DNA of 64,000 nt from Lachnospiraceae bacterium (GTDB taxonomy: Bacteria > Bacillota > Clostridia > Lachnospirales > Lachnospiraceae). The notes under the pieces were generated by a model. The model was not told the DNA's origin. It did not search any database and worked only from the letters and a program-made list of their open reading frames with translations. Shown piece after piece: positions 8,400-31,134 of this stretch. The DNA lies in the NCBI GenBank assembly GCA_024698345.1, contig JAILRH010000255.1:18148-82147 (forward strand), given 5' to 3'. The number at the start of each line of letters is the position of its first letter. Within the stretch, counting starts at the first letter, position 1. A program made the position numbers and the translations under genes.

Positions 8400-8424
8400 A
8401 TTGTAGAAAAGGCAGATGATTCAT

Positions 8425-9626: not shown

Positions 9627-10604
9627 ATGAAAAAAACAAACATGAAAACAAGGAAAAGATTGGCCGGTGCGGTGTCAATGTTATTAATATCGAGTATGAT
9701 GCTCGGAACCGCAACATATGCATGGTTCACAATGAATAATGAAGTTACCGTAACTGGTATGTCAATGAAGACAACTGTAGAAAGCAACTTACTGATTGAT
9801 GATGTTGCAGCTTGTCATGGTGGTTCATGGAGTGCAGGTAGTTATGCTACTAATGATTCAACATTTAGATCATCTACCACCCAAACAATTGGTAGTGCTG
9901 TTTTAGCGCCTTTATCAACAACAAATGGATATAACTTCTTTGCAACTTTACCTAACAATGTAAAGGGTGATGGAGATGCTATTAATAATGCTTACACAGC
10001 TATTACTCAACTTAGTGACTTGACAGGTTTAGGATATAATTCAGCAACCCATACTTGGCTTGATTATCATTTTGTATTAAAGGCTGTAAACACTGATAGT
10101 AGTGCAACTAAGAATATTAACTTGTCTCAACTTAAGATGACATTTAGTAAGGCAACAGATTCAGAAAAAGCTTGGCGTGTTGCAATTCATTCTAAGAAAT
10201 TCGAAACAGCAACTGTTAATGGAGCAAAGACACTTCCTGATATTGATGCAAGTAATACTGGAGTTACAACACATATTTATGCTCCTGCCAGTGCAACTAA
10301 TTTTGAGGCTAACAAAGCTGTAACTTCAACAACTGCAACCGGTAGTGTTACATATGCAAGTCAAGTATCTGATGCAACAATTGCAACTGTAGCTGCAGGC
10401 GCAACAGAGTACTATGAAGTAGTAGTTCGTGTATGGCTTGAAGGTGAAGATAAAACTTGTAATGTAAATACATTCCAGTCATTGGTTGATGGAACATGGA
10501 GTTTTGAAACTAAATTTAAGCTTGAAACTGGAACAACAAGTGGTGTATATGTAATTGAACAGGCTGTTACATCTGCTGGATCGGGATCGGGATCGGGATC
10601 ATAA
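9627..10604 (+). CDS. TasA-like secreted fibre subunit with SipW-type signal peptide
   Basis: A 325-residue exported protein. ATG 9627 is set by AAAGGAGG ending 8 nt upstream; a GTG at 9606 lies before that site and is not used. The signal peptide is basic (KKTNMKTRKR), hydrophobic to about residue 34, and ends TATYAWFTMNN, the hallmark of SipW-processed TasA/CotN/camelysin proteins. TVTGMSM follows, also seen in its neighbours. The mature part is rich in Thr, Ser and Ala with only two cysteines. The C-terminal VRVWLEGEDKTC motif is shared with the protein at 2170, and a Ser-Gly tail encoded by a 6-bp microsatellite ends it. Strong promoter, strong ribosome site and a dedicated terminator suggest this is the abundant, monocistronic major subunit. 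Confidence 0.82.
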   Translation: MKKTNMKTRKRLAGAVSMLLISSMMLGTATYAWFTMNNEVTVTGMSMKTTVESNLLIDDVAACHGGSWSAGSYATNDSTFRSSTTQTIGSAVLAPLSTTNGYNFFATLPNNVKGDGDAINNAYTAITQLSDLTGLGYNSATHTWLDYHFVLKAVNTDSSATKNINLSQLKMTFSKATDSEKAWRVAIHSKKFETATVNGAKTLPDIDASNTGVTTHIYAPASATNFEANKAVTSTTATGSVTYASQVSDATIATVAAGATEYYEVVVRVWLEGEDKTCNVNTFQSLVDGTWSFETKFKLETGTTSGVYVIEQAVTSAGSGSGSGS

Positions 10605-10639
10605 CTTAAAAATGATAATGCCATAGTTATAATCGAATT

Positions 10640-10680
10640 ATATAAAGAACCGTCGGGGATTCCCCGACGGTTCTTTATAT
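10640..10680 (+). terminator. Long perfect hairpin, probable bidirectional terminator
   Basis: An inverted repeat with a near-perfect stem of about 19-20 bp. The arms are 10640-10659 and 10661-10680, with core AAGAACCGTCGGGG and its complement. The U-rich end (TTCTTTATAT) makes it a plausible terminator for the TasA-like gene 36 bp upstream. It directly abuts a gene remnant on its right side. Confidence 0.75.
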
Positions 10681-10758
10681 GCAACAGCATTGGATGATAT
10701 AGACGTTGATATTGTATTTGAACTTAAAGCGATTCCTACTCCTACTCCTGCTTCATAA
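10681..10758 (+). pseudogene. C-terminal remnant of a second TasA-like gene
   Basis: A 25-codon open stretch ending in TAA reads ATALDDIDVDIVFELKAI and then a PTPTPTPAS tail. The strand pattern DIDVDIVFELKAI resembles the last beta strands of the TasA-like proteins at 2170 (GGTIKFQMQFNI) and 9627 (GTWSFETKFKL). It has no start and no body; the hairpin at 10640-10680 stands where the rest should be. It is followed 40 bp later by a canonical terminator. I read it as the tail of a deleted paralogue, whose own terminator survives. Confidence 0.5.
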
Positions 10759-10799
10759 TGCGTGTTTAGAATTAGAAGTGTCTATTTGGATAAGCATTG

Positions 10800-10827
10800 G
10801 TCCCCTCTTCGGAGGGGACTTTTTTTG
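10800..10827 (+). terminator. Rho-independent terminator
   Basis: An 8-bp GC-rich stem, GTCCCCTC / GAGGGGAC, with a stable TTCG tetraloop (10808-10811) and a run of seven T. It is the second terminator after the TasA-like gene and probably belonged to the lost paralogue. Confidence 0.92.
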
Positions 10828-10882
10828 TTTAGCAACGAGGAAAATTCATCAAGCTTGCTTGAATGAATTTGACGACTGCCTA

Positions 10883-11163: not shown

Positions 11164-12063
11164 ATGATTAACTTAAAACATAAATTTAGAACTGTTTTTA
11201 AATTGTATTCCCATTTCTTGGTTTTGTTACTATTATTGATTGCGTCAATTGTATTGATGATTATTATTTTTAATGGAGCTATTGCTTGGCTGGTTGCAAA
11301 TAAACAAACCAACACATCCGGAATGCAAGTGTCCATAAAGAAATCTGATGCCGTGGCAGATTATTATGTATATATATATGATGTCAAGGAAGATGATGTA
11401 CATTATACAGGGCAAACAGTAAATAAGAACGGAATTGCGATTACTTTTTCACCACCGACATTACAGAGTTTGGAAATGCAGTTTTTCGATACAATTTTTA
11501 GATTGAAAAACCGACACACACCGGCTATTGTTCGTATTAGGCTGACGGACTTAGCCGAAGAATGGATTAATGGAGGAAATGTATCGATAACTCTTAAAAG
11601 AGATACGTCGATACCTGAGTATACAACGGAAAATGGGGATAAAAAACTTAATGAATATCTTACAAGTATGATGAGGTTCTCTCTTGCACAGGATAAAGAT
11701 TGGTACAATGCCGATGCAATCACTATGTTCAATAATGTAGATTCTGTGTTATATCCCAAAATTGTTACAAATAGAAATTATAATCCCTCAGGTTCGTCAG
11801 CCGTGTTTACAACAGTTACCACGTCAAATGATGTTATAACAAACATTAGCAAGACGGATGATATAACCATTACAACGTCTTATGAGGCGTCAGACATAGT
11901 AAATGGATATCTGGATGTTTATATGTTTATTACTTATGACGAAAATCTTGTTAATAAGTATGATTTGTCCAATATGAACATTGAAGGAACTGCGGTTGCA
12001 CATGTAACGACTTTAGAAAATGATTTGGAGTTACTTAGTGTTTCTTTTTCGGAAAGTGAGTAA
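11164..12063 (+). CDS. Exported surface protein with SipW-type signal peptide
   Basis: A 299-residue protein with GGGAGGTGG just before ATG 11164. A basic N-terminus and a long hydrophobic segment (about 18-40) end in GAIAWLVANKQTNTSGMQVS, matching the SipW-type pattern of Ala-Trp followed by an Asn/Thr-rich stretch and a xTGMxV block. The mature domain has no cysteine and no recognised family beyond TasA-like architecture. It is followed by a hairpin repeat and then the 1596-residue protein 140 bp later, with which it probably forms an operon. A minor fibre subunit or adaptor role is inferred from the signal peptide and neighbourhood. Confidence 0.75.
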   Translation: MINLKHKFRTVFKLYSHFLVLLLLLIASIVLMIIIFNGAIAWLVANKQTNTSGMQVSIKKSDAVADYYVYIYDVKEDDVHYTGQTVNKNGIAITFSPPTLQSLEMQFFDTIFRLKNRHTPAIVRIRLTDLAEEWINGGNVSITLKRDTSIPEYTTENGDKKLNEYLTSMMRFSLAQDKDWYNADAITMFNNVDSVLYPKIVTNRNYNPSGSSAVFTTVTTSNDVITNISKTDDITITTSYEASDIVNGYLDVYMFITYDENLVNKYDLSNMNIEGTAVAHVTTLENDLELLSVSFSESE

Positions 12064-12073
12064 CCGTATAACT

Positions 12074-12118
12074 AAGAAATAGATGTTCCCCTCTTCTAAA
12101 CAAAGTGAAGGTGGGGGT
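12074..12118 (+). repeat. Dispersed GATGTTCCC hairpin repeat, copy A
   Basis: AAGAAATAGATGTTCCCC and then TCTAAACAAAGTGAAGGTGGGG; the arms form an imperfect stem. A copy with a perfect CCCACCT/AGGTGGG stem is at 59600-59642. Both copies lie between two cotranscribed genes, just after a stop codon. Confidence 0.75.
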
Positions 12119-12203
12119 AAGAAAATTCGTTAAGTAGATGAAAGGTAAGATGAGTGAGTTGAGAAAGAAGTAAAATATCTTGAAACAGAAAGGAGTTGGG
12201 CGT

Positions 12204-15200
12204 ATGAAAAAATACAGAAAAATTATATTTGTTATATGTTTTATTATTTTTGCAGTTGCCATGACTCCAAATGCGTTTGCATGGTTTTATTCTTCGTTGC
12301 AGACTCAACCGGATATTACAGCATATATCCACAAATCTTATTTTGAGAGTGGGGATGGGACTTCGTCTGCGCAGTTTATTGACGGAACGCATGGAACAGA
12401 TGATTCGGGATGCGCATTTGAGATAAAATATCCGGTCCAGTTGTACTATTTTGCATGGCTTCAGGCTCTTGGATACTTTAATATTCCGAATGACGGCGAA
12501 AATACAATAAACCAGGTTTATTTTTATCTTTCGAGTGATCTTGATATGACAGGATATGTATTACCGGAGATTGGAACCGAAGAATATCCTTTCGTTGGAA
12601 ATTTCGATGGTAATGGTCATACTATTTCCAACCTTACGGTACAGAATGTTACAACAACTTCAGATTCGTCAACTACACTGACAGATATTCCGGATGAAAT
12701 TGCAAATTCCGAGATTGTAGGATTTTTTGGAGTGGTAGGATCGCTTTATACAAGTGGTGCAAATTCCGGGACGGTTAATGGGGCAGTGGATAGTGATGGC
12801 AGCTTTGTTGCTACAGCGGGATATACCTACAGCAGTCTTGTTAATGAAATAAAGAATTTTACTATAGACAATGTAACTATCAAAACTGAAACAGATAATG
12901 CATTGATTGGTGCGATTGCAGGATACGTTAATGGCAATGTATCCAATTCGGCATGCTCTGATATAATGCTGAAAATAAAAGATCATACATCTACAATTGG
13001 AATTACATCAGCAATATCAGATTACTCACTGGTGGGGTATTGCACAGATGCATATAAATTTAATCTTAACGTTTCCAAAAATACAGTCTACGCACCTGAA
13101 GAGACTGACAATATGATTTATAAGATAATCCAGGGTGAGGGTGCAGGCTTTGGTGGAAGTGTAAACATGCAGAACTTTTATAACAGGATGAGGAGTGCGT
13201 ATAATGCAGCTTCTTGGCCGACATATGTTTCTACAAAAAATTATATTGTGGATGTTGATGGAGTTAGAACATTTCAGAGCCAAAGCTCAAGTTCAGATTC
13301 TTACCATAAAGCAGTTGATTATGGAAGTGGGGGTAATTATTCTTTTGTTAAGTATCAGTCCGGTCAGGAAACGACAAATTTCTTTTACGTATATGGCGGA
13401 CTGGAATATGACAGCACTATTGTAACAACAACATATTATTATGATAATGAAACAGCTTACTTCATTAAAAGCAATGGCAAGTATTTAAATTTGGATTCAA
13501 ATCATAATATTGTTGCAGGTGATACTGGTGTTACGAAATGGCTGGTTGATAATTCGGGATATTATTATTCGGTTGAATATAATGATTCTACATCTCAGAA
13601 TTATTATTATCTGAATGCAAACGGAAATACAGATGTCCATATACAAAGTAGTGGAAGTACAGTTTGGAATAATAGTAATTCCCAACTATATTTAACTTCA
13701 GGAGGGGTAAATTACTATCTGTATTTTGATGGAAGTAATTGGCGACTTGTATCTAATATAATGCGTATTTCAGACGGAAACGGAAATTATCTTGGAGTTA
13801 GTAATGGCGACATTGCAAATGTTAATGAAAATGCATCTGTTTTTTGGAAGTATGAGAGTGATTGCTGGTCATGTGAAACAGATGGAAATACATATTATCT
13901 GAGAAATAATGGTGGTAATTTAGAGGTTACTACGAATGTGCTTCAAGCCACACAGTGGAATTATAGTGGCGGCACAATTTCAGACGGTAATTATTATTTA
14001 AGGTACAATAATGGAATGTGGTCTTTGGAAACTCTAACTATAACGCAATATTATGTTACAGATGGAAAGGGAAATTATCTAAGATATAATAGTGGTTTAA
14101 CATATTCAAACAATAAATCAAATGCGACTGTTTGGAATTTTTCGAATCATAGTGGAACCGGAACTATTGGCAATGGAACAAGAAATTTGAGATATTATTA
14201 TAATACACTAACAACCGGAACGGGAACCGGAACTTCATACAATTGGACTACAACTTCAGATTCTATTTATTATACTTCAGGAGGAAATAATTATTATATC
14301 AATTATTCAAACGGATGGAAAGCAACGGTAGGTCAGCAAGGGAGAACAATTAGTTACAATGGACAATATCTTAATATTATATCTACAACAGCAGTTGGAA
14401 CGTCAGAGGGTATTGGAGACTATAATGATGAAAACGGAAATACTTTATGGATGATTAATGGAAATACAGTATATACATATGTTGGAGGTACTGTATATTA
14501 TATGGTAAGGAATGGAACAACAGGAATAAGAGTACAAACAACATCTACGACGTGGTCAAGTGTAGGGTCAGATCAAATTTATTATCGAAGCGGTGGAAGG
14601 TATTATTATGTAAGTTATAACAATGGATGGGCGTTATCTCAAACATCACAGTATCTATCAATGTCAAATTTGGTGGAGTTGTATCCAAAAGTGTATACGG
14701 AACCGTATATTGATTTGTCACAACACAGTGACGTGGTATTTGATTTTGATAGCCCAGTAGTATCTTTCGCTAATACAACAGAGCAGATAATGAAATCGAG
14801 AGTTACGAATGATACTGAAAAAACATATGGGCATTCAAATGCTACGTTTTTTCCGATTAACTGTGTTGGAAGTGAGACCTTCAATGAATCATATCCAACT
14901 ATCACAAACGCTAATAAAAATCTTTTAGAGCCTAGCGATAATAATACGGGATATGTTGTTTCCGGCAATTCTATTGGGAACCAGACTTCATATGGTTATG
15001 ATGGCACCGGTGATATTCGTATATCAACTTATGCAATGTCATCTATTTCGGCATCAACTAATCAGTCAAGCAGTTTCACTTACTCAAATTCATATGATAG
15101 CAGACTTGAAATTATTACTGCGGTTAACAATGGCACATACAGTGGTTTTTACAGAGTATCTGATACATATAATGCAAACAACTCAAATATAAATGCAACT

Positions 15201-16994
15201 ATGTCAAGTGCCGTGGCAAACAGTAGAAAAGTAGATTACAACACATTGGGACTTAAGAGATATAAAGATGCCAGAGCAGCACTGTCTGATACATTTATGA
15301 ACGAATCAAATATTTTTGGTCTTCACTTTATGGAGGCAACAATTGATAAAAATAATTATATTGTCATTCCGGAAGCCAATATTAATGGTGAGATATATGA
15401 AAATTACAAAGTTCCAAAGGATAGTATAGATTTTAATGTTAAAAGACGCGGATTTATTACAGTATTTGCAGGTACTTATTTTAATAATAATAGGGCATTC
15501 TTCTCGCTTCATGAGATAACCCGTTATAAGGAAGATGATCCGGAAGTTATAAGTGGAACTTACGAAGTTAACGACATAAAAGATATCAAGGAAATATCAA
15601 ATATTTATAAGGCGGCAGTAGGAAGTGATTATATTTATCAGTATAGCGACGGAACATTCTCAAGCAATGCTGCACGAGGAAATCTGGCTTTCAATATGGG
15701 TTGGATGACGGATACAGAATCCTATTCAACATGGGTTCAAAATGCGGTATATTATTTTGAAATACCTGTTAATGCGGGGGAATTTGCCCTTGGTTCAGTT
15801 CCGGATAAGAGAGGTGCATATCTCTTCTATCTAGACATTGCTGCAAATGCAGGTACTGCTGAAGATAAAGAACGAAGAACATTTACAGAAAAGTTTATGG
15901 ATGAAACTTTCAGTATGCAGCTTCCTAAGGGAGTTCAGTTAGTTGAGTCAGGTAATAGTTACAATGCCTCAAAACCATACGAGTTTCTAACTGTAAACAT
16001 TGGCTCAGGTTTTAGTGGACAATATCCGTTAGTAAGAACGGGAGATGTGTTTACCTATACAGATAATGCGAATACAGAATTGACATATATTGGAGGAGCA
16101 TTGACAGCCCAGACAGTTTCGGGAAATGTTGCGAATGACTATGTGTATTATCCAAACGGATATAAATTCAAATACATTGAGCATGTGACGGATAAGGGGA
16201 TTGATACAGACAATTATGACCATTTCCTTGTTGAAACAACGGACACATATGATTCGACGGGAAATAGAACCGGAAGAAGTGTAAGTCTGTATTCAAGTAT
16301 ATTAAACGGAACAGATTTTACAGATAATGAGGTGATTGACGAGGATGATTTAGACCATATCATTACATTTACATACAATCCAACCGGGCATGATAATATA
16401 GCTATGCGATGCGTAAGAGCGGCGTCAGAAGGTGGTTTTACTATTGCTTTTAATGAGAACATTACGCTGTTGACAACAAGTATAACCAGCGACAATCCGG
16501 ATGTGCATGTCAACTTCGGAGATACTACAGGAGACTTAACCACCGTAACTGCAGCAAATAATCTTAATGGAGTTACAATCCCTGCCATTAATTTGGATGG
16601 CACCGCCGGTGGAGATGACAATGACGAAGGACTGTATCACAAGTCAGTTTACGGACCGGCACTTGCACAGTATCAGACTTATTATACAGGCACGGGTGCA
16701 AATGCAACACTTGATACGGACACATCATTTACAATGGCAAATCTTGCAGCAGGTAATTCAAATCAGAACAGGACGCTCACATACAACATTACCCTTACTC
16801 CGGGAGCATCTGCAGGAACAGTTACGGTATATGCGAGACGCCTGATAAACAGCTATAGTTACACGACACATACATTTAATACAGTTGAAGGGGAGGAAGC
16901 AGTTGCTTCAGGAACGATAAATGTAACAGTTGGAGGCGTAAATATAAACAGTACCGCAATTGGTACACAGACAACAACAGTTACCATTCAGTGA
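12204..16994 (+). CDS. Large SipW-dependent repeat surface protein (1596 aa)
   Basis: ATG 12204 is set by AAAGGAG 8 nt upstream. The signal peptide ends PNAFAWFYSS, a SipW-type site. Residues about 75-175 hold a GLUG-like module (PVQLYYFAWLQALGYFN, later FVGNFDGNGHTISNLTV). From about 420 to 880 comes a tyrosine- and glycine-rich array whose units follow the pattern G-x-YL ... W ... YYLRYNNGMW, with roughly 40-50 residues per unit, resembling beta-trefoil or cell-wall-binding repeats. The remaining half (about 880-1596) is beta-rich, Thr/Ser/Asn-rich and unassigned. No C-terminal membrane anchor or LPxTG is present. It is probably secreted and retained by the fibre or by sugar binding. A strong terminator follows. 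Confidence 0.8.
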   Translation: MKKYRKIIFVICFIIFAVAMTPNAFAWFYSSLQTQPDITAYIHKSYFESGDGTSSAQFIDGTHGTDDSGCAFEIKYPVQLYYFAWLQALGYFNIPNDGENTINQVYFYLSSDLDMTGYVLPEIGTEEYPFVGNFDGNGHTISNLTVQNVTTTSDSSTTLTDIPDEIANSEIVGFFGVVGSLYTSGANSGTVNGAVDSDGSFVATAGYTYSSLVNEIKNFTIDNVTIKTETDNALIGAIAGYVNGNVSNSACSDIMLKIKDHTSTIGITSAISDYSLVGYCTDAYKFNLNVSKNTVYAPEETDNMIYKIIQGEGAGFGGSVNMQNFYNRMRSAYNAASWPTYVSTKNYIVDVDGVRTFQSQSSSSDSYHKAVDYGSGGNYSFVKYQSGQETTNFFYVYGGLEYDSTIVTTTYYYDNETAYFIKSNGKYLNLDSNHNIVAGDTGVTKWLVDNSGYYYSVEYNDSTSQNYYYLNANGNTDVHIQSSGSTVWNNSNSQLYLTSGGVNYYLYFDGSNWRLVSNIMRISDGNGNYLGVSNGDIANVNENASVFWKYESDCWSCETDGNTYYLRNNGGNLEVTTNVLQATQWNYSGGTISDGNYYLRYNNGMWSLETLTITQYYVTDGKGNYLRYNSGLTYSNNKSNATVWNFSNHSGTGTIGNGTRNLRYYYNTLTTGTGTGTSYNWTTTSDSIYYTSGGNNYYINYSNGWKATVGQQGRTISYNGQYLNIISTTAVGTSEGIGDYNDENGNTLWMINGNTVYTYVGGTVYYMVRNGTTGIRVQTTSTTWSSVGSDQIYYRSGGRYYYVSYNNGWALSQTSQYLSMSNLVELYPKVYTEPYIDLSQHSDVVFDFDSPVVSFANTTEQIMKSRVTNDTEKTYGHSNATFFPINCVGSETFNESYPTITNANKNLLEPSDNNTGYVVSGNSIGNQTSYGYDGTGDIRISTYAMSSISASTNQSSSFTYSNSYDSRLEIITAVNNGTYSGFYRVSDTYNANNSNINATMSSAVANSRKVDYNTLGLKRYKDARAALSDTFMNESNIFGLHFMEATIDKNNYIVIPEANINGEIYENYKVPKDSIDFNVKRRGFITVFAGTYFNNNRAFFSLHEITRYKEDDPEVISGTYEVNDIKDIKEISNIYKAAVGSDYIYQYSDGTFSSNAARGNLAFNMGWMTDTESYSTWVQNAVYYFEIPVNAGEFALGSVPDKRGAYLFYLDIAANAGTAEDKERRTFTEKFMDETFSMQLPKGVQLVESGNSYNASKPYEFLTVNIGSGFSGQYPLVRTGDVFTYTDNANTELTYIGGALTAQTVSGNVANDYVYYPNGYKFKYIEHVTDKGIDTDNYDHFLVETTDTYDSTGNRTGRSVSLYSSILNGTDFTDNEVIDEDDLDHIITFTYNPTGHDNIAMRCVRAASEGGFTIAFNENITLLTTSITSDNPDVHVNFGDTTGDLTTVTAANNLNGVTIPAINLDGTAGGDDNDEGLYHKSVYGPALAQYQTYYTGTGANATLDTDTSFTMANLAAGNSNQNRTLTYNITLTPGASAGTVTVYARRLINSYSYTTHTFNTVEGEEAVASGTINVTVGGVNINSTAIGTQTTTVTIQ

Positions 16995-17011
16995 TTGGTA
17001 CAGTTATATAG

Positions 17012-17056
17012 GCACCTGTTTGTCAATCGGATTGATTGATGAACAGGTGCTTTTTT
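17012..17056 (+). terminator. Rho-independent terminator
   Basis: A 17-bp stem with two G-U pairs (GCACCTGTT... / ...AACAGGTGC) followed by six T, 18 bp after the stop of the 1596-residue protein. Confidence 0.93.
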
Positions 17057-17731: not shown

Positions 17732-18664
17732 ATGATAAAGAGAAATGTGGATGATAAAAAAGACAAAAACATAAGATTTATTATTATAAAAAACTGTATA
17801 TTGTTGCTATTGTTGCTCTTTACACTTATTTTTGGCGCAATTGCCTGGTTCTCTAATAACAGACAACTACTTGTAACAGGAATGGAAGTTAAGATGCAGG
17901 AACCGCCTTATACCATTCAAACCCGAAACGAAAGCGGTTACTACAGTGATATTTATGAATCGCTTGATACCGGAGCTATGGAGTGGAAGGTTTCCGAAGA
18001 TGACAATTTTGACAATCATGAGGATGATTTGGATCATGAAGAGGATGAACCGGGACTTGAGCCCGGAGACAGCGGGGTACTTGAATTCAGAGTCAATCCT
18101 AATTCTGATGATACCATAACGGTTGATTGTGTTTTTGGTATTAGAGCATATCTCGAAGTGACAAGTATAGATGAAAACGATAATTCTGTGACAGAGATAA
18201 CAGAAATAGATGACAGTACGCTCTTACAGTTTGTCAAGTCACATATTATACTTTTTGAAGATTATGATGAACAAACAGGAAAATATAGCAACCTGATTGG
18301 CGATGATCAGTCGTTTAGGCGTGTGCTTACAAATCAGACATACAGAAGAAATGAAAATGTATACACCAAAGTTTACTGGGTTTGGCCGGAACATTTAGAT
18401 GAACTTACAGATGAAGATGATGAAGAAATTATATATGACCCGACTGAACGTACAGATGTTATTACATACATCGCCAATAACAAGAATGGCTTTTTTAAGG
18501 ATTGTAATGATAGTGTTACGCAGGTTGCAGCAGATCTTACAGCTCTTTCTTCAGCTTATTCGACTTCAATCTATAATAGATATAGTATGAAGTATGACAA
18601 TACAGATCTTGATATAGGAAACAATGTATCTTATGTGATTCTATCAATGCAGGTAGAAGAGTGA
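17732..18664 (+). CDS. Acidic surface protein with SipW-type signal peptide
   Basis: A 310-residue exported protein. Its signal segment (about 19-42) ends FGAIAWFSNNRQLLVTGMEV, nearly the same layout as the TasA-like protein at 9627 (AWFTMNN...VTGMSM). The mature protein is very acidic, with clusters such as DLDHEEDEPGLEPGD and TDEDDEEI. The family is not recognised beyond the signal. It is the first gene of a four-gene operon (gaps 60, 49 and 64 bp from chosen starts) ending in the 3474-residue protein. Acidic surface proteins of this kind may bind cations or cap fibres; this is inference. Confidence 0.75.
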   Translation: MIKRNVDDKKDKNIRFIIIKNCILLLLLLFTLIFGAIAWFSNNRQLLVTGMEVKMQEPPYTIQTRNESGYYSDIYESLDTGAMEWKVSEDDNFDNHEDDLDHEEDEPGLEPGDSGVLEFRVNPNSDDTITVDCVFGIRAYLEVTSIDENDNSVTEITEIDDSTLLQFVKSHIILFEDYDEQTGKYSNLIGDDQSFRRVLTNQTYRRNENVYTKVYWVWPEHLDELTDEDDEEIIYDPTERTDVITYIANNKNGFFKDCNDSVTQVAADLTALSSAYSTSIYNRYSMKYDNTDLDIGNNVSYVILSMQVEE

Positions 18665-20709: not shown

Positions 20710-23700
20710 ATGAAAAATCTTATTAAAATTAATTATAGACTAATCAAAAGAAGTATAAGTTGTGTACTTGCTTTGGCAATTATCCTAGCCGGATTTCCAG
20801 TCGAGATGACTTCTGAAAACGGAAGTGAAATAATTAGTTTTCTGAAAGAAGTTAAGGCAGCAGGTGAGCTGGCTGAACTAACAGCACGGTACAGTGGGCA
20901 TACATATACATTTACTTCCGGTGGTACTGAGTTGTCAGAATATTCACAGTGCTTTCAGGATTCTTTATGGGCAGTTGAGCATGCAAATGATATCATTACA
21001 CTCAATCCGGTTGCAGGAGTGTTTGTATTTGATACAAATTATAGCCCAATAGGCAGTGCAAGTGCGCCATTCAATGGGACAATATATTTCAATACATCCG
21101 CAGCTGATTTTGCAGTTAATGCCAACAGTTCTATTTTTGACTATGTCAAAGATTCTGTATCATTACTTAGGTTGGGAAGTGCAGATGATAATATTCCCCT
21201 GAGTATCAACAGAGTTGCAGATGTCGATGATACAGTGTCTCCTCTTTTTGCTAAGCATGTGGTGGGGAGCGGCGCTGCAGCACCATATGAATGGAAAGTT
21301 ACACTGAATTCTGCCAGTGCAAGAAGTTATTCAGGTGTAATATTTGAAATGACGGATGGTGCAAAAGTTAATCTGACATTTGATGATAAAAGCAATCATA
21401 CTCCTTTACGTGATAACAATAATGTTATTGTTTCAGGTTCTATAATAGATAATAAACAGAATAATGCAAACTATGGAATACTTTGCGGAGTTCTTAAAAA
21501 TGGAAGTGTTCTTAATTGTACATATACAAAGGTAAATGACGATAATGTTACGTTTATCGGAACAGGAATAGCATATACAGGTGGGTTGGTAGGAGAGATT
21601 GACGGCTCAACTTTTGAAATTCTTTCAGGTAGCAGCAACCTTAAAGTTGATTTTCAGACTTCAAAGGATAGTGTGGGATTTATCTGCGGACACGCGTATA
21701 ACAGTACAATTACCTTACCTGACGGCTACGCTATATCAGGAACTGTTGACGGGAATCAGTATGCTGGAGGAATTGTAGGTTACTGCAAGAATACTACCAT
21801 TAATTACGAAAACACAACCGGTATAATTAATATAAGCAACTGCAATATTAGTAATGGGAACAACGCATCTGCAACAGGTGGAGTATTTGGTTATTATGAA
21901 AGCAATGTAAAGACAAATGATATACTAATTAATAATCACAGTTATATATTGACAAACTGCACGGTTGTAGGGGAAAGTGGGAAAAATGGAGGCATTGCAG
22001 GAGAGTATAAGCCTACTTATAATGACAATGTTACCATTGACCTTGACAAATATTCACTTGGCAATTCTATTTCGCTTTCAGGGTCGATAGCCGGAGGGCT
22101 TTTTGGAAAATATACCTCAGCCGGAAATGTAACAATTACAGATTCGAATACGACAAACAGCCACTTTGTACCGTCTTCGAGTACAGTGGCTTATGGTGGT
22201 GTAATTGGTGAATATGTCAATGGAAGTACTGCAGGAGTTTATTCACAAACCCTTACTTTAAGCGATTTTGTAGTAAATGGGATTAACTGTACTTCCACGG
22301 GAAATGTCGGCGGAGTTCTAAACGTTCTTACCGGATCTACATATATCAGTGTAGATGATGTCTCAATTACAAATGCAAGTGTTGATGCTTCGACTAAGTT
22401 TGGTGGTATTGTTTCTACACTAAATAGTAATAATATAGGGTCATTTATTGATTTAACAGGTGATTTTACTGTGTCACTTTCCTCAGGTACATATAAGGGT
22501 GGAGCTGTAGCAGGAAGCTTCAAGAACGGTGTGATTCGTTTTGCGGGAACTACGGATATCAGTGGTGCACGTGCTGCGAATGGTTATGGACAACTTGTTT
22601 ATGAGAACGACAACACCCTTGTTTATGCTTTAGGTAGTGGCTCAGATTCAAGATGGAATTTTATAAGAAATGAGGATACCACAACGTCAGATCTTGGTCA
22701 GTGGGGTGAAGTTGTCAGACTTTTTAAGGTTAATGGAGCTGATAAGAATGCAGAGGAGGCTGGGATTGTCTCCGTAAGCGGTAACAAGGTGACTGTTGCA
22801 GGAGTAACAGTTAATCCTACTATAGATGATGAGGTTTCGTTTGCCAAAGTTGCTCTTAATATGCAACTTAATGATGGCAGTGACCATGGTTCACTTTGTT
22901 TTGCAAGTGGCGGAGCAAATAAAAATGCTTTATTGTCGACTGATATCACGGTCAGTGGCACGGTTGACCTTTCCGGAACAGGGCTGCTTGGACTGATGCG
23001 TGATGGTGGACTGGGAAAATATCTTGGTGGGGGAGACAATACTTTTCACAATGTTGCTTTTTTTACCGGTTCTGTTACAGGAACAAATGACGCTGAGATA
23101 AAATTGACCACAGGAGAAGCGTATGGAAATTATAACTCAGGAAATGTGGGGACGGGTGGAAAAATCTATCTTTCAGAAAATTATGGACATGATGCACAGG
23201 GATTATTTGCATTTGCAAAAGGAGTTAGCATTACAGATTTGAAAGTCAGTGGCAACATTGATGTTGAAAGAAATGGAGGATCTAATTACTTATATGCCGG
23301 AGCTTTGTTTGGTGCAATGACAAATGGTGCAACATTGTCAGGTACTACTGTTACAACAACTATTGATGCAACAAGAGCCAATAATGCCCGATTCTATATT
23401 GGTGGTGTTTCGGGTGTGTTTGATGGAAATGAAACTTCAGGCAATCCATATGAATTGAGTATAAAAGACAGTTCCATAATCAGACCTGTAATTGTTCTCA
23501 GTGGAGTGATAGGTTGTACTGATTCTTATAATGACGGTGATCTCTCAAAATGTAATAACACATATGCAGGCGGAGTGCTGGGACTGCTTAAAGGTGCAAC
23601 AGCCACAAGATATGGTGTTTCAATCAATAGCTCGGAGATATCTCCTGCAATAACGATCGATAGTAGAGTTAGCGATGTTGACTATTCATATCTTGGAGGA

Positions 23701-26700
23701 ATGATTGGACGTGTTTCAGCCAATAGCACAAATCAAAGAACTATCAGTATTAATAATGTAGGAATGACAAATGCTGCTGTGCAGACAAAAGCAAAGTATG
23801 CCGGAGGATTGCTTGGTTCTCATTGGGAGAGGACAAATGTTACTATAGACGGACTTACTATATCGGGTGCTTCTGTTACACATAGCTATTCAGCCGGCGG
23901 AAGTAAAATGAGTGGTCTTGTGTTTAAGGGAACAGGTAAATGGGACGTTAATACACTTAGTATGTCATCAACAGGTATTACTTCTGCCGATACGAATGCT
24001 GCATCATTTGGGCTTATCGTAAATGAAGCATATAGTGGAAGTGATGGTCTTTATATAAATCTTAAAAACAGTGGTTATACTCTTTCAGGTGTAACTATTC
24101 CTACTTCATCTGCAAATGGAAACTATTATGTTGACGAAATAGTCGCTGATTCTCAGAATAATGATAAAAGTGGTGGAGATATTCTTATTGGCAAAGATGG
24201 TACGGGAATTGTCAATATTAATATGAATGCAGTAAATGGAGCTGACACAAAAATAACTTCTACAGGTACATATCAGAACAGGATTTATTCCCAGTTGAAT
24301 ACATTAAATCTTACTGCAAATCAGAATAGCAGATATTATTATAATCTTGATGTTATACTTGCTAAGGGAACAAATGGAAGTGGGGCAACAGATGGAGAGA
24401 AGTTCCTCCTTTGGTCGGTGCGCAAATACGCTTCGAACAATATAAAAGCATATTTTAAAAGTAATGATGATATGATCTCCGGAACAGATATTGATCTTAG
24501 AGGTTTGTCATATTATCCAATTTACGGTGATAATGTAACGTTGCCAACGGGTGCAACTGTTACTTTTGGTTTCAAAGCAATAAATGACTATGAGAATTCT
24601 ACGGTGACGCCTGATAATTGGTCAAGAAATCCGGATGATGCCGGAAGTCCTAAAACTTCCGATGCACGTAATCAACATTATCTGATGCAGACGGGATTGT
24701 TTAATACAACATCAAGTCTGTCAGCAGATAGACTTACGCTCACCGGCGATTTTGGATATGTTGAAGGAATCGCTTCCGGTGCACTCATTAACGGTTCAAC
24801 ATCAGGCAGTGTAACTGTAACAGGATTAACACTTGATAAGTTGGTTCCATCCAATACTTCATCATATATGCTTATAAACTATATAAATGGTACGGGAAAT
24901 GCAACGCCTTCGCTTGTTGTGAGCGGTGTTCGCGCAGAGAATTATAATTCCGCCGGAGTTACTCTTCCGGTTGCAAAGTCATTGTTTGGCACTGCAATGG
25001 GGCAGAACATGACAATGACCTTTAGTGATATAAAGCTCGATGCAAGAAATGGCTCAACCATTACTGATGCCAACTGGTCAGCAGATGCCACAAATAATGC
25101 TGCTTCCATGACAGCAGCCTATGGCACATCACGCTCTATTTTTAGTACGGCTACATTTTTTACCACTTTGCTCTCGTCAAAGACTTCAGTTATGATTTAT
25201 AATTACGGCGTTGATGAAGATTGGGAAGGTGGGGCACCACGAAATGTAACTTACGGTAAAGAGATTACATCATCAAAGCAATACGCAAGTGGTGAGGAAC
25301 ACTATTATACAGTTGGTAATATGACAGGAAATTATACAAATCCTATTGGGAATTCTAATACAAGATTTAATTTTTCTGCCGGTTTTCTTCCGTATGTTGG
25401 AAATTACGAAGATAAAGGTGATGACCCTACTTACCCGGTTGTTGAAATTAAAGTAAATTATAAAGCTCCCGGAATTGTTAATGGTTGTGGAACGTATAAT
25501 GATCCTTATATAATTTCTTCCGCTTCACAGCTTGAACTGGTAGCTGACGTTGTGAACGGGGAGGATTCACCTAGTATTATTACACTTCCAAATGAATTTT
25601 ACACAGATCATATCTCAACTTCGTGGCATAATGCAAACAGTGGGGATGGCCTTTATAATCTGGATAACGGAAGATATGTTAAAGATACCACTAATTCCGC
25701 AAAAGGATTGGATAATAAGTGGACAGCGGATAACGTACGTTTATATCTTGCAGCGGCTTATTATTTAATTGATGATGACATTGAATTGACAAGTGATTTT
25801 AAAGGAATAGGTGCTCCTGGAACAGGAACAGCTGTCAATGGAAATTATGTTTTTCATGGTGTTATTATTGGAAAAAAGATTGATGGGACAGCACCAACAA
25901 TTACAAATCCTACAGATAATCCGTTTATATATATAAGTAATGGTTCTGTAGTTAAGAATATTAATATTGAGGTGGAAACTGCTGTTTCTAAATCGCTGGG
26001 CAGGACAGGCGATAACGCACTTTACGGATATAAAAAGAACAATAGTACTGATAAAGGAGCTGAATATTACGGTGGTGTTATTGGTGAGATTATGGGTGGG
26101 GATAACATTATAGATGATGTTTCAATCGCATACTCGGGCGAGACATCACTTAGTGGAAACTACAGCCATCTTATAGCTGAAGGCGGTATGGTTGGTGTTG
26201 TTGTTAATGGTTCACTGATTTTCAGAGGCTCAAATTCCGTGAGCGGAAGGAGTGTGAGTGGTGGAGGAATTTATTCTAATCCTTATGTAGGAAGAGTTAT
26301 TAACGGTTATGCAATTTATGAAAAAATAAGCGGTAGACCGGGCACTGCTCCAGTGAACAGCAGTTACTATCCAATTGATAGTATAGACAGAACTAATCAA
26401 AACAAATTGGATGTAAATTATGATGACGGAACTATTGATATTCCCGATGCTCAGGCACTTTATATCATGTCACTTATCACTCAGTCAATTGCCGGCACGG
26501 CGATTACAACCGGCAATGAAGACTATACTGATGGCAGTAACAATGGGTATTCTCCATCCTATGGTTTTTGGAAGCAAAATTATTTAGTTGGGGTGGCCAG
26601 ACTAGGCGATTACGATGAAGTGGGTTGTGGAATAGATACAACAAAGCCTAAGGATTATTCTTCTTTTGCTTATAGGGATAGCGTTAATAACACTTACACA

Positions 26701-29700
26701 AATAATGGAGATTTAATGTGGTCTCCTACACCTTATATTATTTACAGATATACAAAGGCGTATGGAACAAACAATAAGACTTCACTAAACTTTCCAGCAC
26801 GCAAGATGACGTCAGATAACGATAAATTTTGGAATATTAATCTTGACAAAAGTAATACATTTATTGATTTTGACAGATATCAGGCATTCAGAGGTATTGG
26901 CAGTGTGGGAATTATTTCTCAAAATAACAAGTCAAAAACTGCAATGAAAATTGCTACTTTTGACGGCAACAACAATACGATTAAATTTCATATTAGCCTG
27001 CCTAGATATGAAAGATATGCAAGTAATAAAGATCAAGATAATTATTTCCATAAACAAAATAAATCACTTACGCAAGTATATGATGGAGTTCAGCTTGATA
27101 ATGCAGATTATGGTCATGATGGTACTAATCAGATTCAGCAGTTGATGGGATTGGGGTTATTTGATTGTGTGATGGTGAAAAATGATTCTACTCATGAATA
27201 CCAATTCTGTAATTTCACTCTGCAGGGTACCATTGAGGATAAAGTATATAATAGAAACGGAGATGATATAACAGGTACTACCGATCAGACGCAACTATTT
27301 TGTTTGGGTGGAGTTATAGGTAAACGAGTAAATGGAAACAATTATGACTTGAATTTCAGTAATATTACATTTGACGGATTGACTATCACCGGAGCATATA
27401 ATTGTGGAGGATTGATTGGTATAGACGCAGTTAAAAGTGTTACGAAGATGAAGATAGATGGATGTAATTCAACAACAAACGGAATTAGTCTGACAGGCGG
27501 ATATTATGGAAAGGCTAATGCACTTCGACATGGTGTAGGCAGTTTTGTAGGAATGACATTTTGGTGCCGCCCATATATCAACGGTCAGACTTCTAACTCA
27601 GCAACATCGGATATTTATGTAGCTAACGTTTCCACCTATTATACAGGAAACGACAATAGATGTAATGTAGGTGGTTTGATAGGTACTTCCGGAACCGGTG
27701 CTGAAATTAAAAATATCAGGTTGGTTGCAGCAAATAACAACTCAGTAGTAGGTGCACCAAATGTTGCAAATGCAGCAGGTTTTATAGGTTATGCACAGAC
27801 TAGAGGAAATGGCAACGATGGTTGGTATGCGGATCCAAATTATTTGTCCAATTCAATTTATATTGAAAACTGCACGCTTGATAATGTATCAGTAAAAGCT
27901 AAAAATAGTGCAGCAGGTTTTTATGGGAGAAGCTGGCTCGATGCATGGTCAGTGAAGTATATCTTTATAAAAGACTGTGCAGTGGTCGGTGATGTTAATA
28001 ATAAACCTGAGATCAAAGCATACGGAACCGGAACGAATAATGATGACAATTGTGTTGGTGGATTTGTGAGTGGGTTTAATGGAGCCAGTACTCTTATTAT
28101 TAGCGAAATGACGAATTGCCATATAGAAGGTTATAGATTGGAGGGATACAATGTTGGAGGACTAATTGGAAGAACGACAGACAAGACTGCTTACCTAAAG
28201 AACCTTTATAGTAGGGATTGTGAAATAATTACATGCAATGCAAATGGGCGTGTAGGTGGAATTGTAGGTTTTTCCAATCAGAATCTATCAGGATATAATC
28301 TTAAAATTGATAATGTGAATTTTTACAGGCGAAATAACAACACTTTATCTGACTTCACAAGTAATGCAGGTATGGTTGTAGGAGGGCATACATCAACAAA
28401 TTATATTTACAAATTTATCGGCATCGGAGGTTATCATTCAGACAATATAAAAGTACCTACTGCAGTTGTAAAGTACTATGGAACAAATGCAGGCAATTTG
28501 TTCGTATATTCAGACTATTTAAATACCGGGGCAATTGACATCGCAAATAAAAATAGTTATGTTTCAACGTTTGGCAATGATGGTGTCAATGTTGATCAGC
28601 CTTTGGCACCATTTGTAAATGTTGCTCCTCATATGGATATGGGAACAGATGAATATCTGACAGGCGATGGCGCAAGCATTGGTAAAGCAGGAGAAATATA
28701 CAAAGATATAAAGGCTGCAACTTCAAACAGAAGATATACTATCAGAACATCCTCAGTGACAGATCCTTCAGTAGGAAATGTTACAGATTCTGTTACAATG
28801 GCAAAATATATCAATGATAATGGTACTTATAAAGATGGCACATTTAAGATTTCAACGGCTTCGGCAGAGTTTAAAGATGCATTTAATAATTTGACCGGGG
28901 TTGACAATTTCTCTATGCTGGTTATTAATGATGATACTGATAAAGCCGGAGATATAACTCCGTTCATCAAATCGTATATACGTATGGTTACAAATGCGGC
29001 AGCAGGTTATAATTCAAATACTTTTTCACAGTATGCATACAGTTGTGGAAATACTACTATTGATGCGTTGTATAGTGTTGTGATTAATCCGTGCTACTAT
29101 GATGCAGGACAGGGTAAATTTGTTTTAGGAGAAGCAGGTGATCAAGGCTTACAAATGTATTCGCGTAGTGATACTACTGATGGAGGTAAGTATTATTTTG
29201 ACTCATCTAAAGCAGATTCTGAATCTTCAAACACATGTCAGTTCTCACTGATTGATGTTCAGTTCAAAGACCCTACAGATACGAATAGCAATAGAGTGGC
29301 ATATCACCTTTATGTACCTGTGTATACAAAGAAGATGCTTACGGTAGAATTTAGTGCAGTGACAATGTCTGAAACTAAATATAACCGTGCGCTATATGCA
29401 AATAAAATTACATCTGAAATAGAGGCTGGGAAAAATACAACCAACAGGTCGATACTTGTTGAGAGTACAAATGAGTGGACAACCACATTTATAAGATATA
29501 CTTATCCGAAGAATCAGGTTTCATCAAGTGATGGCTGGAATTTTGATAAGACTATTACTTTGACACTGGATGGTAACTTTAGGACTTTGCCGATTGGAAC
29601 AAAACTGATACTTGTAGATCCAAATGCAAATTCTGATAAATATTACACGATGACAATTGGTTCAGAGTATTCGACAAATACAGCTATACCACTTAATTTG

Positions 29701-31134
29701 TCGTCCTTCGTTGATGAAAGTGGTAATTCGTTTACTCCGCAGAATCTTTCAGCAATCCTTGCAGATTCTGAGGCTTCGGGTAATGGTGCAGGCCATACAA
29801 ATGAACTTTATGAGGATTATTATATTAGTATGTATGTTCCAAAAAATGAAGGTGCTACACACAGTATACTTTTTGGATGTGAAGCAGAATTGGCCCATGG
29901 AAGTGGGGATGGTATGGTTAAGGCTAATATTGATTCAAAACTCTATTCTCTTGTGATTTTGGGTGATTTGTTCAATCATAGCATAGTGGAGAGAGGATTT
30001 GAGGTAAATTCCGGAGACGGTGTTACTTTTGGTGATAGTCCGGAAATGTTACCAACAAATAATGTGCTTAAATCAGAAGTGACCGCCACTGTACAGATTA
30101 AGAATCAAAGTGCAGGTGCATACCTTGCCAACTCGGATGTATATCATGCGTTTTTCATCTCATTGACATCCCATGATGAAGAGCATAAAGTATCAGATAT
30201 TATTTATGGTATTACACCGGGATACATTAATAATACAACTACATATACCTACACTAACAGCTCGGGAGAACATTCTGTTACTAAAACGGAATCCAGATTG
30301 GGAGCGAACTACATTAAACTTGATAGCGGAAGTATAATAGCTGCACTGTATGATCCAACCATGAGTCCTGTTGTTACAATACACGCTGAAACAACTATGA
30401 CTTTTAATGATGTAACGGCTTTCCCATTTAATATGAACGGGGAAGATGAAATAGGAACGCAGGTGTCAATCAAATCAAATCTTGCATATAGAGAAGAAGA
30501 TTTATTGTTCAGTGCGATGAATGTAATAGAGGAAGATCCGGAAGGAACATTCTATTATTCTAAAACAAAAAATAGTGCTGAACTTAGTTTCAATGCAGTA
30601 CCTTCAGATGATACATCAGATGAGATTGGTTTAAAAACTAACAATAGAAATTTACTTGGTGTAAATGGAAAATACGGTACATCACATCCGATTCTTGGAA
30701 TGGCAATCTATAATGTAGATGATATTGTTGACTATGATTCGTCAACGACATTAAAGTACACAGTTGCACTGTATAAAAAAGTTACAGATGTAAATGGAAC
30801 AAGGTATGTTCAGGTTGATGATATCAGTGACTATCTGAGTAGTGTTGACATGGAGGATCATGAAGTAACACTTACGGCAGACAGAACAACTAATCCTGCA
30901 GAATATGTATTTACGGGTTCGATAAACCATGAGCATCAATCAGACTTAGATAGAATGTTCGAGACGGACTTTAGCTGTAATGTTCTCACAGGAGATGCAG
31001 GGCACAATGAGTATGCTAATTATAAAATATATATTACGGCAGAACTAATCGGGGCAACAAACAGCTGGAAAGATGCATATCTTATTTATACAAATGCCAA
31101 ATTTGATCCGTCAGTTATAGATCAGATAAATTGA
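20710..31134 (+). CDS. Giant GLUG-repeat surface protein (3474 aa)
   Basis: One uninterrupted 10.4-kb gene. An N-terminal hydrophobic segment (about 15-32) precedes VKAAGELAEL, a possible Sec signal rather than a SipW one. GLUG-type turns (GGLVG, GGIVG, GGVFG, GGLIG) recur in two arrays, about residues 287-1035 and 1785-2555, as in beta-solenoid adhesins. Between them lie DLRGLSYYPI (near 1265) and GCGTYNDPYIISSASQLELV (near 1590), resembling the lead-in of GLUG modules. The last 900 residues are non-repetitive and beta-rich. There is no LPxTG and no C-terminal hydrophobic anchor. It is the last gene of the operon. The likely role is an adhesin or very long fibre-associated stalk; ligand unknown. 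Confidence 0.85.
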   Translation: MKNLIKINYRLIKRSISCVLALAIILAGFPVEMTSENGSEIISFLKEVKAAGELAELTARYSGHTYTFTSGGTELSEYSQCFQDSLWAVEHANDIITLNPVAGVFVFDTNYSPIGSASAPFNGTIYFNTSAADFAVNANSSIFDYVKDSVSLLRLGSADDNIPLSINRVADVDDTVSPLFAKHVVGSGAAAPYEWKVTLNSASARSYSGVIFEMTDGAKVNLTFDDKSNHTPLRDNNNVIVSGSIIDNKQNNANYGILCGVLKNGSVLNCTYTKVNDDNVTFIGTGIAYTGGLVGEIDGSTFEILSGSSNLKVDFQTSKDSVGFICGHAYNSTITLPDGYAISGTVDGNQYAGGIVGYCKNTTINYENTTGIINISNCNISNGNNASATGGVFGYYESNVKTNDILINNHSYILTNCTVVGESGKNGGIAGEYKPTYNDNVTIDLDKYSLGNSISLSGSIAGGLFGKYTSAGNVTITDSNTTNSHFVPSSSTVAYGGVIGEYVNGSTAGVYSQTLTLSDFVVNGINCTSTGNVGGVLNVLTGSTYISVDDVSITNASVDASTKFGGIVSTLNSNNIGSFIDLTGDFTVSLSSGTYKGGAVAGSFKNGVIRFAGTTDISGARAANGYGQLVYENDNTLVYALGSGSDSRWNFIRNEDTTTSDLGQWGEVVRLFKVNGADKNAEEAGIVSVSGNKVTVAGVTVNPTIDDEVSFAKVALNMQLNDGSDHGSLCFASGGANKNALLSTDITVSGTVDLSGTGLLGLMRDGGLGKYLGGGDNTFHNVAFFTGSVTGTNDAEIKLTTGEAYGNYNSGNVGTGGKIYLSENYGHDAQGLFAFAKGVSITDLKVSGNIDVERNGGSNYLYAGALFGAMTNGATLSGTTVTTTIDATRANNARFYIGGVSGVFDGNETSGNPYELSIKDSSIIRPVIVLSGVIGCTDSYNDGDLSKCNNTYAGGVLGLLKGATATRYGVSINSSEISPAITIDSRVSDVDYSYLGGMIGRVSANSTNQRTISINNVGMTNAAVQTKAKYAGGLLGSHWERTNVTIDGLTISGASVTHSYSAGGSKMSGLVFKGTGKWDVNTLSMSSTGITSADTNAASFGLIVNEAYSGSDGLYINLKNSGYTLSGVTIPTSSANGNYYVDEIVADSQNNDKSGGDILIGKDGTGIVNINMNAVNGADTKITSTGTYQNRIYSQLNTLNLTANQNSRYYYNLDVILAKGTNGSGATDGEKFLLWSVRKYASNNIKAYFKSNDDMISGTDIDLRGLSYYPIYGDNVTLPTGATVTFGFKAINDYENSTVTPDNWSRNPDDAGSPKTSDARNQHYLMQTGLFNTTSSLSADRLTLTGDFGYVEGIASGALINGSTSGSVTVTGLTLDKLVPSNTSSYMLINYINGTGNATPSLVVSGVRAENYNSAGVTLPVAKSLFGTAMGQNMTMTFSDIKLDARNGSTITDANWSADATNNAASMTAAYGTSRSIFSTATFFTTLLSSKTSVMIYNYGVDEDWEGGAPRNVTYGKEITSSKQYASGEEHYYTVGNMTGNYTNPIGNSNTRFNFSAGFLPYVGNYEDKGDDPTYPVVEIKVNYKAPGIVNGCGTYNDPYIISSASQLELVADVVNGEDSPSIITLPNEFYTDHISTSWHNANSGDGLYNLDNGRYVKDTTNSAKGLDNKWTADNVRLYLAAAYYLIDDDIELTSDFKGIGAPGTGTAVNGNYVFHGVIIGKKIDGTAPTITNPTDNPFIYISNGSVVKNINIEVETAVSKSLGRTGDNALYGYKKNNSTDKGAEYYGGVIGEIMGGDNIIDDVSIAYSGETSLSGNYSHLIAEGGMVGVVVNGSLIFRGSNSVSGRSVSGGGIYSNPYVGRVINGYAIYEKISGRPGTAPVNSSYYPIDSIDRTNQNKLDVNYDDGTIDIPDAQALYIMSLITQSIAGTAITTGNEDYTDGSNNGYSPSYGFWKQNYLVGVARLGDYDEVGCGIDTTKPKDYSSFAYRDSVNNTYTNNGDLMWSPTPYIIYRYTKAYGTNNKTSLNFPARKMTSDNDKFWNINLDKSNTFIDFDRYQAFRGIGSVGIISQNNKSKTAMKIATFDGNNNTIKFHISLPRYERYASNKDQDNYFHKQNKSLTQVYDGVQLDNADYGHDGTNQIQQLMGLGLFDCVMVKNDSTHEYQFCNFTLQGTIEDKVYNRNGDDITGTTDQTQLFCLGGVIGKRVNGNNYDLNFSNITFDGLTITGAYNCGGLIGIDAVKSVTKMKIDGCNSTTNGISLTGGYYGKANALRHGVGSFVGMTFWCRPYINGQTSNSATSDIYVANVSTYYTGNDNRCNVGGLIGTSGTGAEIKNIRLVAANNNSVVGAPNVANAAGFIGYAQTRGNGNDGWYADPNYLSNSIYIENCTLDNVSVKAKNSAAGFYGRSWLDAWSVKYIFIKDCAVVGDVNNKPEIKAYGTGTNNDDNCVGGFVSGFNGASTLIISEMTNCHIEGYRLEGYNVGGLIGRTTDKTAYLKNLYSRDCEIITCNANGRVGGIVGFSNQNLSGYNLKIDNVNFYRRNNNTLSDFTSNAGMVVGGHTSTNYIYKFIGIGGYHSDNIKVPTAVVKYYGTNAGNLFVYSDYLNTGAIDIANKNSYVSTFGNDGVNVDQPLAPFVNVAPHMDMGTDEYLTGDGASIGKAGEIYKDIKAATSNRRYTIRTSSVTDPSVGNVTDSVTMAKYINDNGTYKDGTFKISTASAEFKDAFNNLTGVDNFSMLVINDDTDKAGDITPFIKSYIRMVTNAAAGYNSNTFSQYAYSCGNTTIDALYSVVINPCYYDAGQGKFVLGEAGDQGLQMYSRSDTTDGGKYYFDSSKADSESSNTCQFSLIDVQFKDPTDTNSNRVAYHLYVPVYTKKMLTVEFSAVTMSETKYNRALYANKITSEIEAGKNTTNRSILVESTNEWTTTFIRYTYPKNQVSSSDGWNFDKTITLTLDGNFRTLPIGTKLILVDPNANSDKYYTMTIGSEYSTNTAIPLNLSSFVDESGNSFTPQNLSAILADSEASGNGAGHTNELYEDYYISMYVPKNEGATHSILFGCEAELAHGSGDGMVKANIDSKLYSLVILGDLFNHSIVERGFEVNSGDGVTFGDSPEMLPTNNVLKSEVTATVQIKNQSAGAYLANSDVYHAFFISLTSHDEEHKVSDIIYGITPGYINNTTTYTYTNSSGEHSVTKTESRLGANYIKLDSGSIIAALYDPTMSPVVTIHAETTMTFNDVTAFPFNMNGEDEIGTQVSIKSNLAYREEDLLFSAMNVIEEDPEGTFYYSKTKNSAELSFNAVPSDDTSDEIGLKTNNRNLLGVNGKYGTSHPILGMAIYNVDDIVDYDSSTTLKYTVALYKKVTDVNGTRYVQVDDISDYLSSVDMEDHEVTLTADRTTNPAEYVFTGSINHEHQSDLDRMFETDFSCNVLTGDAGHNEYANYKIYITAELIGATNSWKDAYLIYTNAKFDPSVIDQIN

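Follow-up and report, generated by a model that had tools for sequence, protein, structure and literature searches.

A candidate SipW-dependent pilus locus with a McrBC-derived membrane NTPase in a Lachnospiraceae bacterium

A Lachnospiraceae bacterium of gut or rumen has a conserved set of genes whose products probably build surface protein fibres. The genes lie in a window of 64,000 nucleotides (the whole stretch of DNA that was analysed, within which positions are given), and comprise two SipW-type signal peptidases, a McrBC-derived membrane module and a series of candidate pilins and adhesins. Gene content, conservation, a gene fusion, catalytic residues, conserved signal sites and the predicted fold make it fairly probable, if well short of certain, that this is a system of the CoCoPALM type, a SipW-dependent non-covalent pilus run by a McrBC-derived membrane NTPase.

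An earlier note on this DNA had described a SipW-linked fibre locus with at least five substrates, seen as an enlarged tapA-sipW-tasA operon. The fibre locus is well supported, with about six candidate substrates, and it is much larger than the Bacillus operon. The interpretation was incomplete, however, since the core, a McrBC-derived membrane module, was missed and the pilin ectodomains are unlike those of TasA and camelysin. The genes for the AAA+, DUF2357 and EAL proteins, the gene called 8425 and the 74-aa ORF at 9085 were absent from that description, and large loci of a similar kind are present in other Clostridia too.

Core operon and its McrBC-like pair

The core operon consists of eight genes, with a promoter ahead of the first:

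1228-1256, promoter (12/12 consensus), 5' of the EAL gene
1333..2094, + strand, degenerate EAL-domain protein, first core gene (PF00563, E 1e-33)
2170..2883, + strand, membrane-anchored protein with a predicted TasA-like beta-sandwich (AF2 model; ectodomain homologous to 9627)
2975..3754, + strand, SipW-type signal peptidase A (NF046067, E 1e-32; TIGR02228 over cut-off)
3857..5419, + strand, membrane-anchored McrB-like AAA+ NTPase: transmembrane helix, coiled coil, AAA+ (alignment and McrB profile match)
5456..7705, + strand, McrC-like DUF2357 protein with a long charged coiled coil and one hydrophobic segment (PF09823, E 2.5e-9)
7695..8399, + strand, SipW-type signal peptidase B (TIGR02228 over cut-off)
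8416..8955, + strand, single-helix membrane protein 8425, core component
9085..9309, + strand, 74-aa coiled-coil protein, core component

Relatives were collected by a scan of one genome per species, in which 84,980 species yielded 531 relatives, and the best 80 of the 531 loci were used. Among the 47 loci with enough flanking DNA, the genes for SipW-A, the AAA+ protein, the DUF2357 protein and SipW-B were present in 47/47 and their order was kept in 46/47; the loci had been chosen by AAA+ similarity, so the AAA+ count is complete by construction, which does not apply to the other genes. The EAL, 2170 and 74-aa genes were each found in 43 of the 47 spanning loci, and 8425 in 40. The best 80 of 531 come from rumen Lachnospiraceae, Eubacterium ruminantium, E. 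uniforme, E. xylanophilum, Ruminococcus albus, R. flavefaciens and related Clostridia. In a separate 250-genome sample of the family, SipW occurred in all 16 genomes with a membrane AAA+ protein, as against 85 of the 234 others.

The two SipW enzymes reported earlier were confirmed by matches to NF046067 and TIGR02228, and they are the only proteins of the genome that match TIGR02228 over its cut-off. The NF046067 equivalog cut-off for Bacillus SipW was not reached, so that both are to be taken as relatives and not as orthologues of the Bacillus enzyme. The active-site residues of SipW-A (S51, H94 and D119) are conserved in 69-72 of 72 relatives, and those of SipW-B (S53, H96 and D118) are invariant in relatives. 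The reading frame of SipW-B overlaps the DUF2357 gene by 11 nt, and in 23 loci, mostly from Ruminococcus, the two form a single ORF (about 970-1050 aa in examples). No other finding argues as strongly as this fusion that the McrBC-like pair and the peptidase act together and are not merely adjacent. In the frame 5' of SipW-A (window 2884-2974), a YYYEAD/YYYETE repeat reads through into the peptidase frame; the repeat is probably a non-coding leader.

In the AAA+ protein, a hydrophobic segment near residue 61 is followed by a charged, helical-looking stretch with invariant residues. The alignment of relatives contains the invariant motifs GISGTGKT, LDEMN and NNDD, and McrB was the sole sequence family matched when the AAA+ profile was compared with the PDB (E 2e-5). 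The invariant residues N361-N362-D363-D364 align with the McrB asparagine, in a string that fits NxD and NxxD alike. The partner protein carries DUF2357, the domain through which McrC activates McrB according to the available text of Bell et al. 2024 (PMC11090510). Its charged stretch spans about residues 350-575, and its C-terminal part consists of a charged coil with a hydrophobic segment or, in relatives, of a fused SipW-B. No nuclease family was detected in this protein by a Pfam profile search at E values up to 1.

It could be argued that the locus is a matrix-fibre operon based on SipW, as for tasA or for bsaA of C. perfringens, with self-assembly after cleavage, and that the McrBC-like pair is unrelated to it, serving for example in defence. 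BsaA polymerises without helpers (PMC7395162), many genomes of the family have SipW and TasA-like genes without the AAA+ gene, and PADLOC labels the AAA+ protein (window 3857-5419) as the phage-defence candidate PDC-M26A (E 2e-41). An unrelated pair is nevertheless improbable in view of the four-gene core with its retained order, the fusion of DUF2357 to SipW-B in 23 loci, the membrane anchor of the AAA+ protein and the negative nuclease search in its partner. Annotation from the AAA+ domain alone can mislabel the locus as phage defence. AAA+ relatives in another arrangement were also seen at two loci (L051, where it is AAA-DUF2357-AAA, and L052), the genomes of which gave no SipW match; they are possibly a non-pilus branch.

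In the EAL protein, the metal-ligand motifs are replaced (TEFGG, IADGVS) and ExLxR is kept; from its sequence, it is predicted to be a non-catalytic c-di-GMP receptor or adaptor. Neither 8425 (over cut-off) nor the 74-aa protein matched a Pfam family. The latter shows approximately 70-100% identity in most Lachnospiraceae and Ruminococcus loci, and a lone paralogue (36%) occurs elsewhere in this genome, close to the end of a contig (L167, 5574-5774), without related neighbours.

The McrBC-like complex might also be a regulator or a quality-control device, gating the SipWs or extracting retained pilins, instead of a secretion or assembly motor. DUF2357 is physically joined to SipW-B in the fusions, a degenerate EAL protein, regulatory in type, belongs to the core, and in S. 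aureus a member of the McrB family has been recruited to a role in cell architecture outside defence (PMC10602043). Such a role accords with the bulk of the evidence and shares ground with the gating option of the CoCoPALM-type pilus; as an explanation in its own right, it is judged rather unlikely.

Signal sites and candidate fibre proteins

Downstream of the core lie the candidate surface proteins, in which the arrow marks the proposed cleavage point:

9627..10604, + strand, candidate major pilin, signal TYA↓WF (conserved site; VIA matches; own terminator downstream)
10640..10820, + strand, perfect 20-bp inverted repeat and second intrinsic terminator, 3' of 9627
11164..12063, + strand, cassette 1 candidate minor pilin, signal AIA↓WL, SGM block
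12204..16994, + strand, cassette 1 candidate adhesin, 1,596 aa, signal AFA↓WF
17010..17052, + strand, intrinsic terminator closing cassette 1
17732..18664, + strand, cassette 2 candidate minor pilin, signal AIA↓WF, TGM block
18725..19513, + strand, cassette 2 surface protein, signal VFA↓WL
19563..20645, + strand, cassette 2 surface protein, TasA-like signal AYA↓AYN
20710..31134, + strand, cassette 2 giant candidate adhesin, 3,474 aa, ordinary-looking signal peptide (G[GA]hhG repeats, no sorting motif)

Five proteins had been singled out for a hydrophobic segment ending in A-W-F/L, and all five bear it at the N-terminus: 9627 (TYA↓WFTMN), 11164 (AIA↓WLVAN), 12204 (AFA↓WFYSS), 17732 (AIA↓WFSNN) and 18725 (VFA↓WLAYQ). 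The motif AW[FLY] just past an N-terminal hydrophobic segment was found in 5 of the 13 such ORFs of the locus and in 0 of 69 in the background (Fisher p = 4.7e-5), which was drawn from the hydrophobic-N-terminus ORFs of the remainder of the window plus 186 ORFs sampled from contigs of the same genome. The block said to follow in several of them reads TGM in two (9627 and 17732) and SGM in a third (11164), and is missing from 12204 and 18725, so that "several" stands for three, loosely counted.

The sites are strongly conserved in alignments of relatives. The 9627 family has A and W in 46/46 members and F in 43/46, the 17732 family W and F in 12/12 each, and the 18725 family A and W in 11/11 each, while the sites of 11164 and 12204 show near-equal conservation, with few members aligned. 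Of the two looser versions that had been proposed, the one in 19563 holds, with a conserved A↓[AS]-Y site (A 10/10, Y 10/10) that follows the pattern of TasA, in which the cleavage site is TWA↓AF. The one in 2170 does not, as this protein is without an A-W-F/L-type site (AYAISYFYDKFG) and its AlphaFold (AF2) model (pLDDT 82) has a single unbroken helix over residues 2-51, followed by mainly beta structure. The 2170 protein is probably an uncleaved, membrane-retained pilin-like anchor or initiator and not a SipW substrate. The largest protein, 20710, is likewise without a SipW-type site.

The SipW-signal HMM search that the earlier note had suggested was negative: TIGR04088 gave 0 matches in the bacterium's own genome, with a B. 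subtilis positive control that matched. In profile-profile comparison with camelysin/TasA-type proteins of other Lachnospiraceae, the 9627 family matched over the signal segment only (E 2.2e-5), and the ectodomains gave a probability below 1%, which indicates a SipW-type signal on a fibre protein from a different family. PF12389 (TasA/camelysin) had no match in the genome, nor in an hmmscan of the locus proteins.

In several of the proteins, the small residues at P3 and P1 meet the requirements of signal peptidase I as well, and a separate housekeeping signal peptidase I is encoded in the genome. Both points, like the negative TIGR04088 search, would agree with ordinary signal-peptidase-I substrates or membrane-anchored proteins, in which A-W-F would reflect the structure at the end of the helix and not a SipW cleavage site. 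Against this, P2' is occupied by F, L or Y in the proteins of the locus, and an aromatic residue there goes with poor cleavage of TasA by LepB (PMC10269814); the site is also near-invariant across diverged families, linked to two SipW genes with intact active sites and not seen at the other hydrophobic N-termini that were sampled from the genome. Ordinary processing is accordingly regarded as very unlikely.

Within the proposed SipW-dependent pilus, 9627 is the candidate major pilin. Its AlphaFold model, of mediocre quality (pLDDT 69), has an N-terminal helix and then mainly beta structure. Structural comparison by VIA placed an archaeal thread (Z 6.0), TasA (Z 6.0) and FimA forms at the top for 9627 (all donor-strand pilins), and TasA first for 2170 (Z 6.7, 3.1 Å over 128 residues); Z values of 6.0-6.7 fall within the noise range stated for the tool and could arise by chance, so that the fold is supportive and not proof. 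In a comparison of the 2170 model with the PDB, the TasA fibre 8aur was the best match and an archaeal bundling pilus the third, and TasA was not among the top 50 when Foldseek alone was run on the 9627 model. The 2170 profile also weakly matched Brr2 in the PDB (E 0.013), which was put down to chance.

The ectodomains of 9627 and 2170 are homologous (hhalign 97.6-97.8%). Iterated full-length HMMs merged 9627, 2170, 17732, 18725 and 11164 into one family, a grouping that was rejected as drift via the shared hydrophobic segment; the link between 9627 and 2170, the sole one retested on ectodomains alone, was kept. The strong terminators that follow 9627 are what one would expect of a major subunit expressed at a high level. 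Extra pilin copies near an intact pilin were observed on L125 (2-460(-), 4199-5428(+) and 5581-6744(-)) and L071 (20248-21213(-)). They lie on both strands, start at or just before EYAWFTMSREVEVQNIQM and have no proper signal peptide, and they resemble silent cassettes that would serve antigenic or phase variation.

Adhesin cassettes and neighbouring genes

The genes 11164-12204 and 17732-18725-19563-20710 are read as exchangeable adhesin modules, both of which are present in the window. An 11164-type gene stands directly before a 12204-type gene in 4/4 relatives. For the second cassette, with contig ends set aside, 17732 is followed by 18725 in 9/9 relatives, then by 19563 in 8/8 and by 20710 in 6/8, and the block can sit on the opposite strand near the core. 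No Pfam family was found for the adhesin 12204, and 20710 contains 18 G[GA]hhG repeats, compared with 0.6 in shuffled copies. The long leaders before 9627, 11164 and 17732 gave no riboswitch over threshold, and no other direct c-di-GMP element.

A sortase gene at 33816, 2.7 kb downstream of the locus, raises the idea of covalent pili assembled by sortase. This is extremely unlikely, given that no LPxTG-like sorting motif was found in any of the surface proteins of the locus and that, in C. perfringens, the nearby srtB is dispensable for BsaA fibres (PMC7395162). The sortase forms a separate small system (window 31326-34457) with a Big_2 surface protein and a protein that has a C-terminal membrane anchor after KNTGHD. 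Further 3' (window 35407-40595), exopolysaccharide-type genes were recognized by eye (chain-length regulator, tyrosine-kinase-like ATPase and CapD-like epimerase), so that fibre and capsule or matrix genes adjoin.

Proposed mechanism and relation to known systems

For the SipW-dependent, NTPase-run pilus, we infer how cleavage, polymerisation, NTPase coupling, c-di-GMP control and adhesin position at the tip could be brought together. Sec would export the pilins (9627 as major, 11164, 17732, 18725 and 19563 as minor subunits) and the large adhesin 12204, with signal peptides ending in x-A↓W-F/L or A↓A-Y, where the two SipW enzymes would cleave. The freed N-terminal strand, including the TGM block where present, would fill in the beta-sandwich of the subunit that follows, in the manner of TasA and of archaeal threads and bundling pili, while 2170 would keep its membrane helix and serve as the base or initiator of the fibre. 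The McrB-like AAA+ protein may form a ring at the inner face of the membrane, with the McrC-like DUF2357 partner docked to SipW-B, and the two would use NTP hydrolysis to gate, feed or release pilins. The degenerate EAL protein might pass on a c-di-GMP signal, and the two exchangeable cassettes would supply tip adhesins. The motor role of the NTPase is the least certain step, and a serious alternative to it is that the AAA+ protein regulates SipW or the release of pilins.

A further proposal, held only tentatively, is that the locus represents a separate class of Gram-positive pilus, in which an NTP-driven, McrBC-derived inner-membrane complex physically joined to SipW processes and polymerises donor-strand pilins and loads exchangeable giant adhesins. 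If true, it would mean that a restriction system gave rise to an energy-driven pilus pathway. TasA-type fibres are not known to need a dedicated motor for their assembly; the present locus encodes a motor candidate together with a signal peptidase of TasA/thread-type fibres, and 23 relatives have the two as a fusion.

The closest known description is that of "CoCoPALM" by Bell et al. 2024 (PMC11090510), the available text of which reports McrB-like GTPases with FtsB-like segments beside signal peptidases. The shared features are a McrB-like GTPase with membrane and coiled-coil helices, a coiled-coil DUF2357 protein, signal peptidases in the same operon and a predicted link to pili, to which that text devotes one paragraph, deferring the rest to a later paper. 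A literature search found neither such a follow-up paper on CoCoPALM nor a description of the fibre proteins. In contrast to the present locus, the CoCoPALM text gives no substrates, fusions or wider core (PMC11090510). The substrate and pilin families with their conserved site, the two adhesin cassettes, the DUF2357-SipW-B fusion and the wider core with the 74-aa gene, 8425, the degenerate EAL protein and the anchor-like pilin relative 2170 are new here, although the supplements of Bell et al. may list some of these details.

Like Bacillus tapA-sipW-tasA and B. cereus TasA/CalY, the locus has a SipW-type peptidase, an A↓x-F-like site and a predicted TasA-like fold. It differs in its two SipWs, its NTPase complex and at least six candidate substrates, a giant adhesin among them, and in lacking both a PF12389 match and ectodomain sequence similarity to TasA. 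The C. perfringens sipW-bsaABCRSD system also combines SipW with several secreted proteins and a dispensable nearby sortase gene, and a terminator is predicted after its main fibre gene bsaA, as after 9627; unlike the locus, it has one SipW and two-component regulation within the operon, and the available text mentions no NTPase or DUF2357 protein (PMC7395162).

With archaeal threads and bundling pili (PDB 7pnb and 7ueg), the locus shares a predicted beta-sandwich pilin with a freed N-terminal strand, a link drawn from modest fold scores; the assembly machinery of the threads is unknown (PMC9715654). The AAA+ protein is homologous to McrB of the E. coli type IV restriction system McrBC, and DUF2357 is common to McrC. 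In the locus, unlike in McrBC, a membrane anchor replaces the DNA-binding domain, no nuclease domain was found and SipW is fused in relatives.

More than 500 relatives occur in Clostridia, many of them from the rumen and gut, including the cellulose degraders R. albus and R. flavefaciens. With this wide presence in rumen and gut Clostridia, the locus may account for the attachment of such bacteria to plant fibre or to one another.
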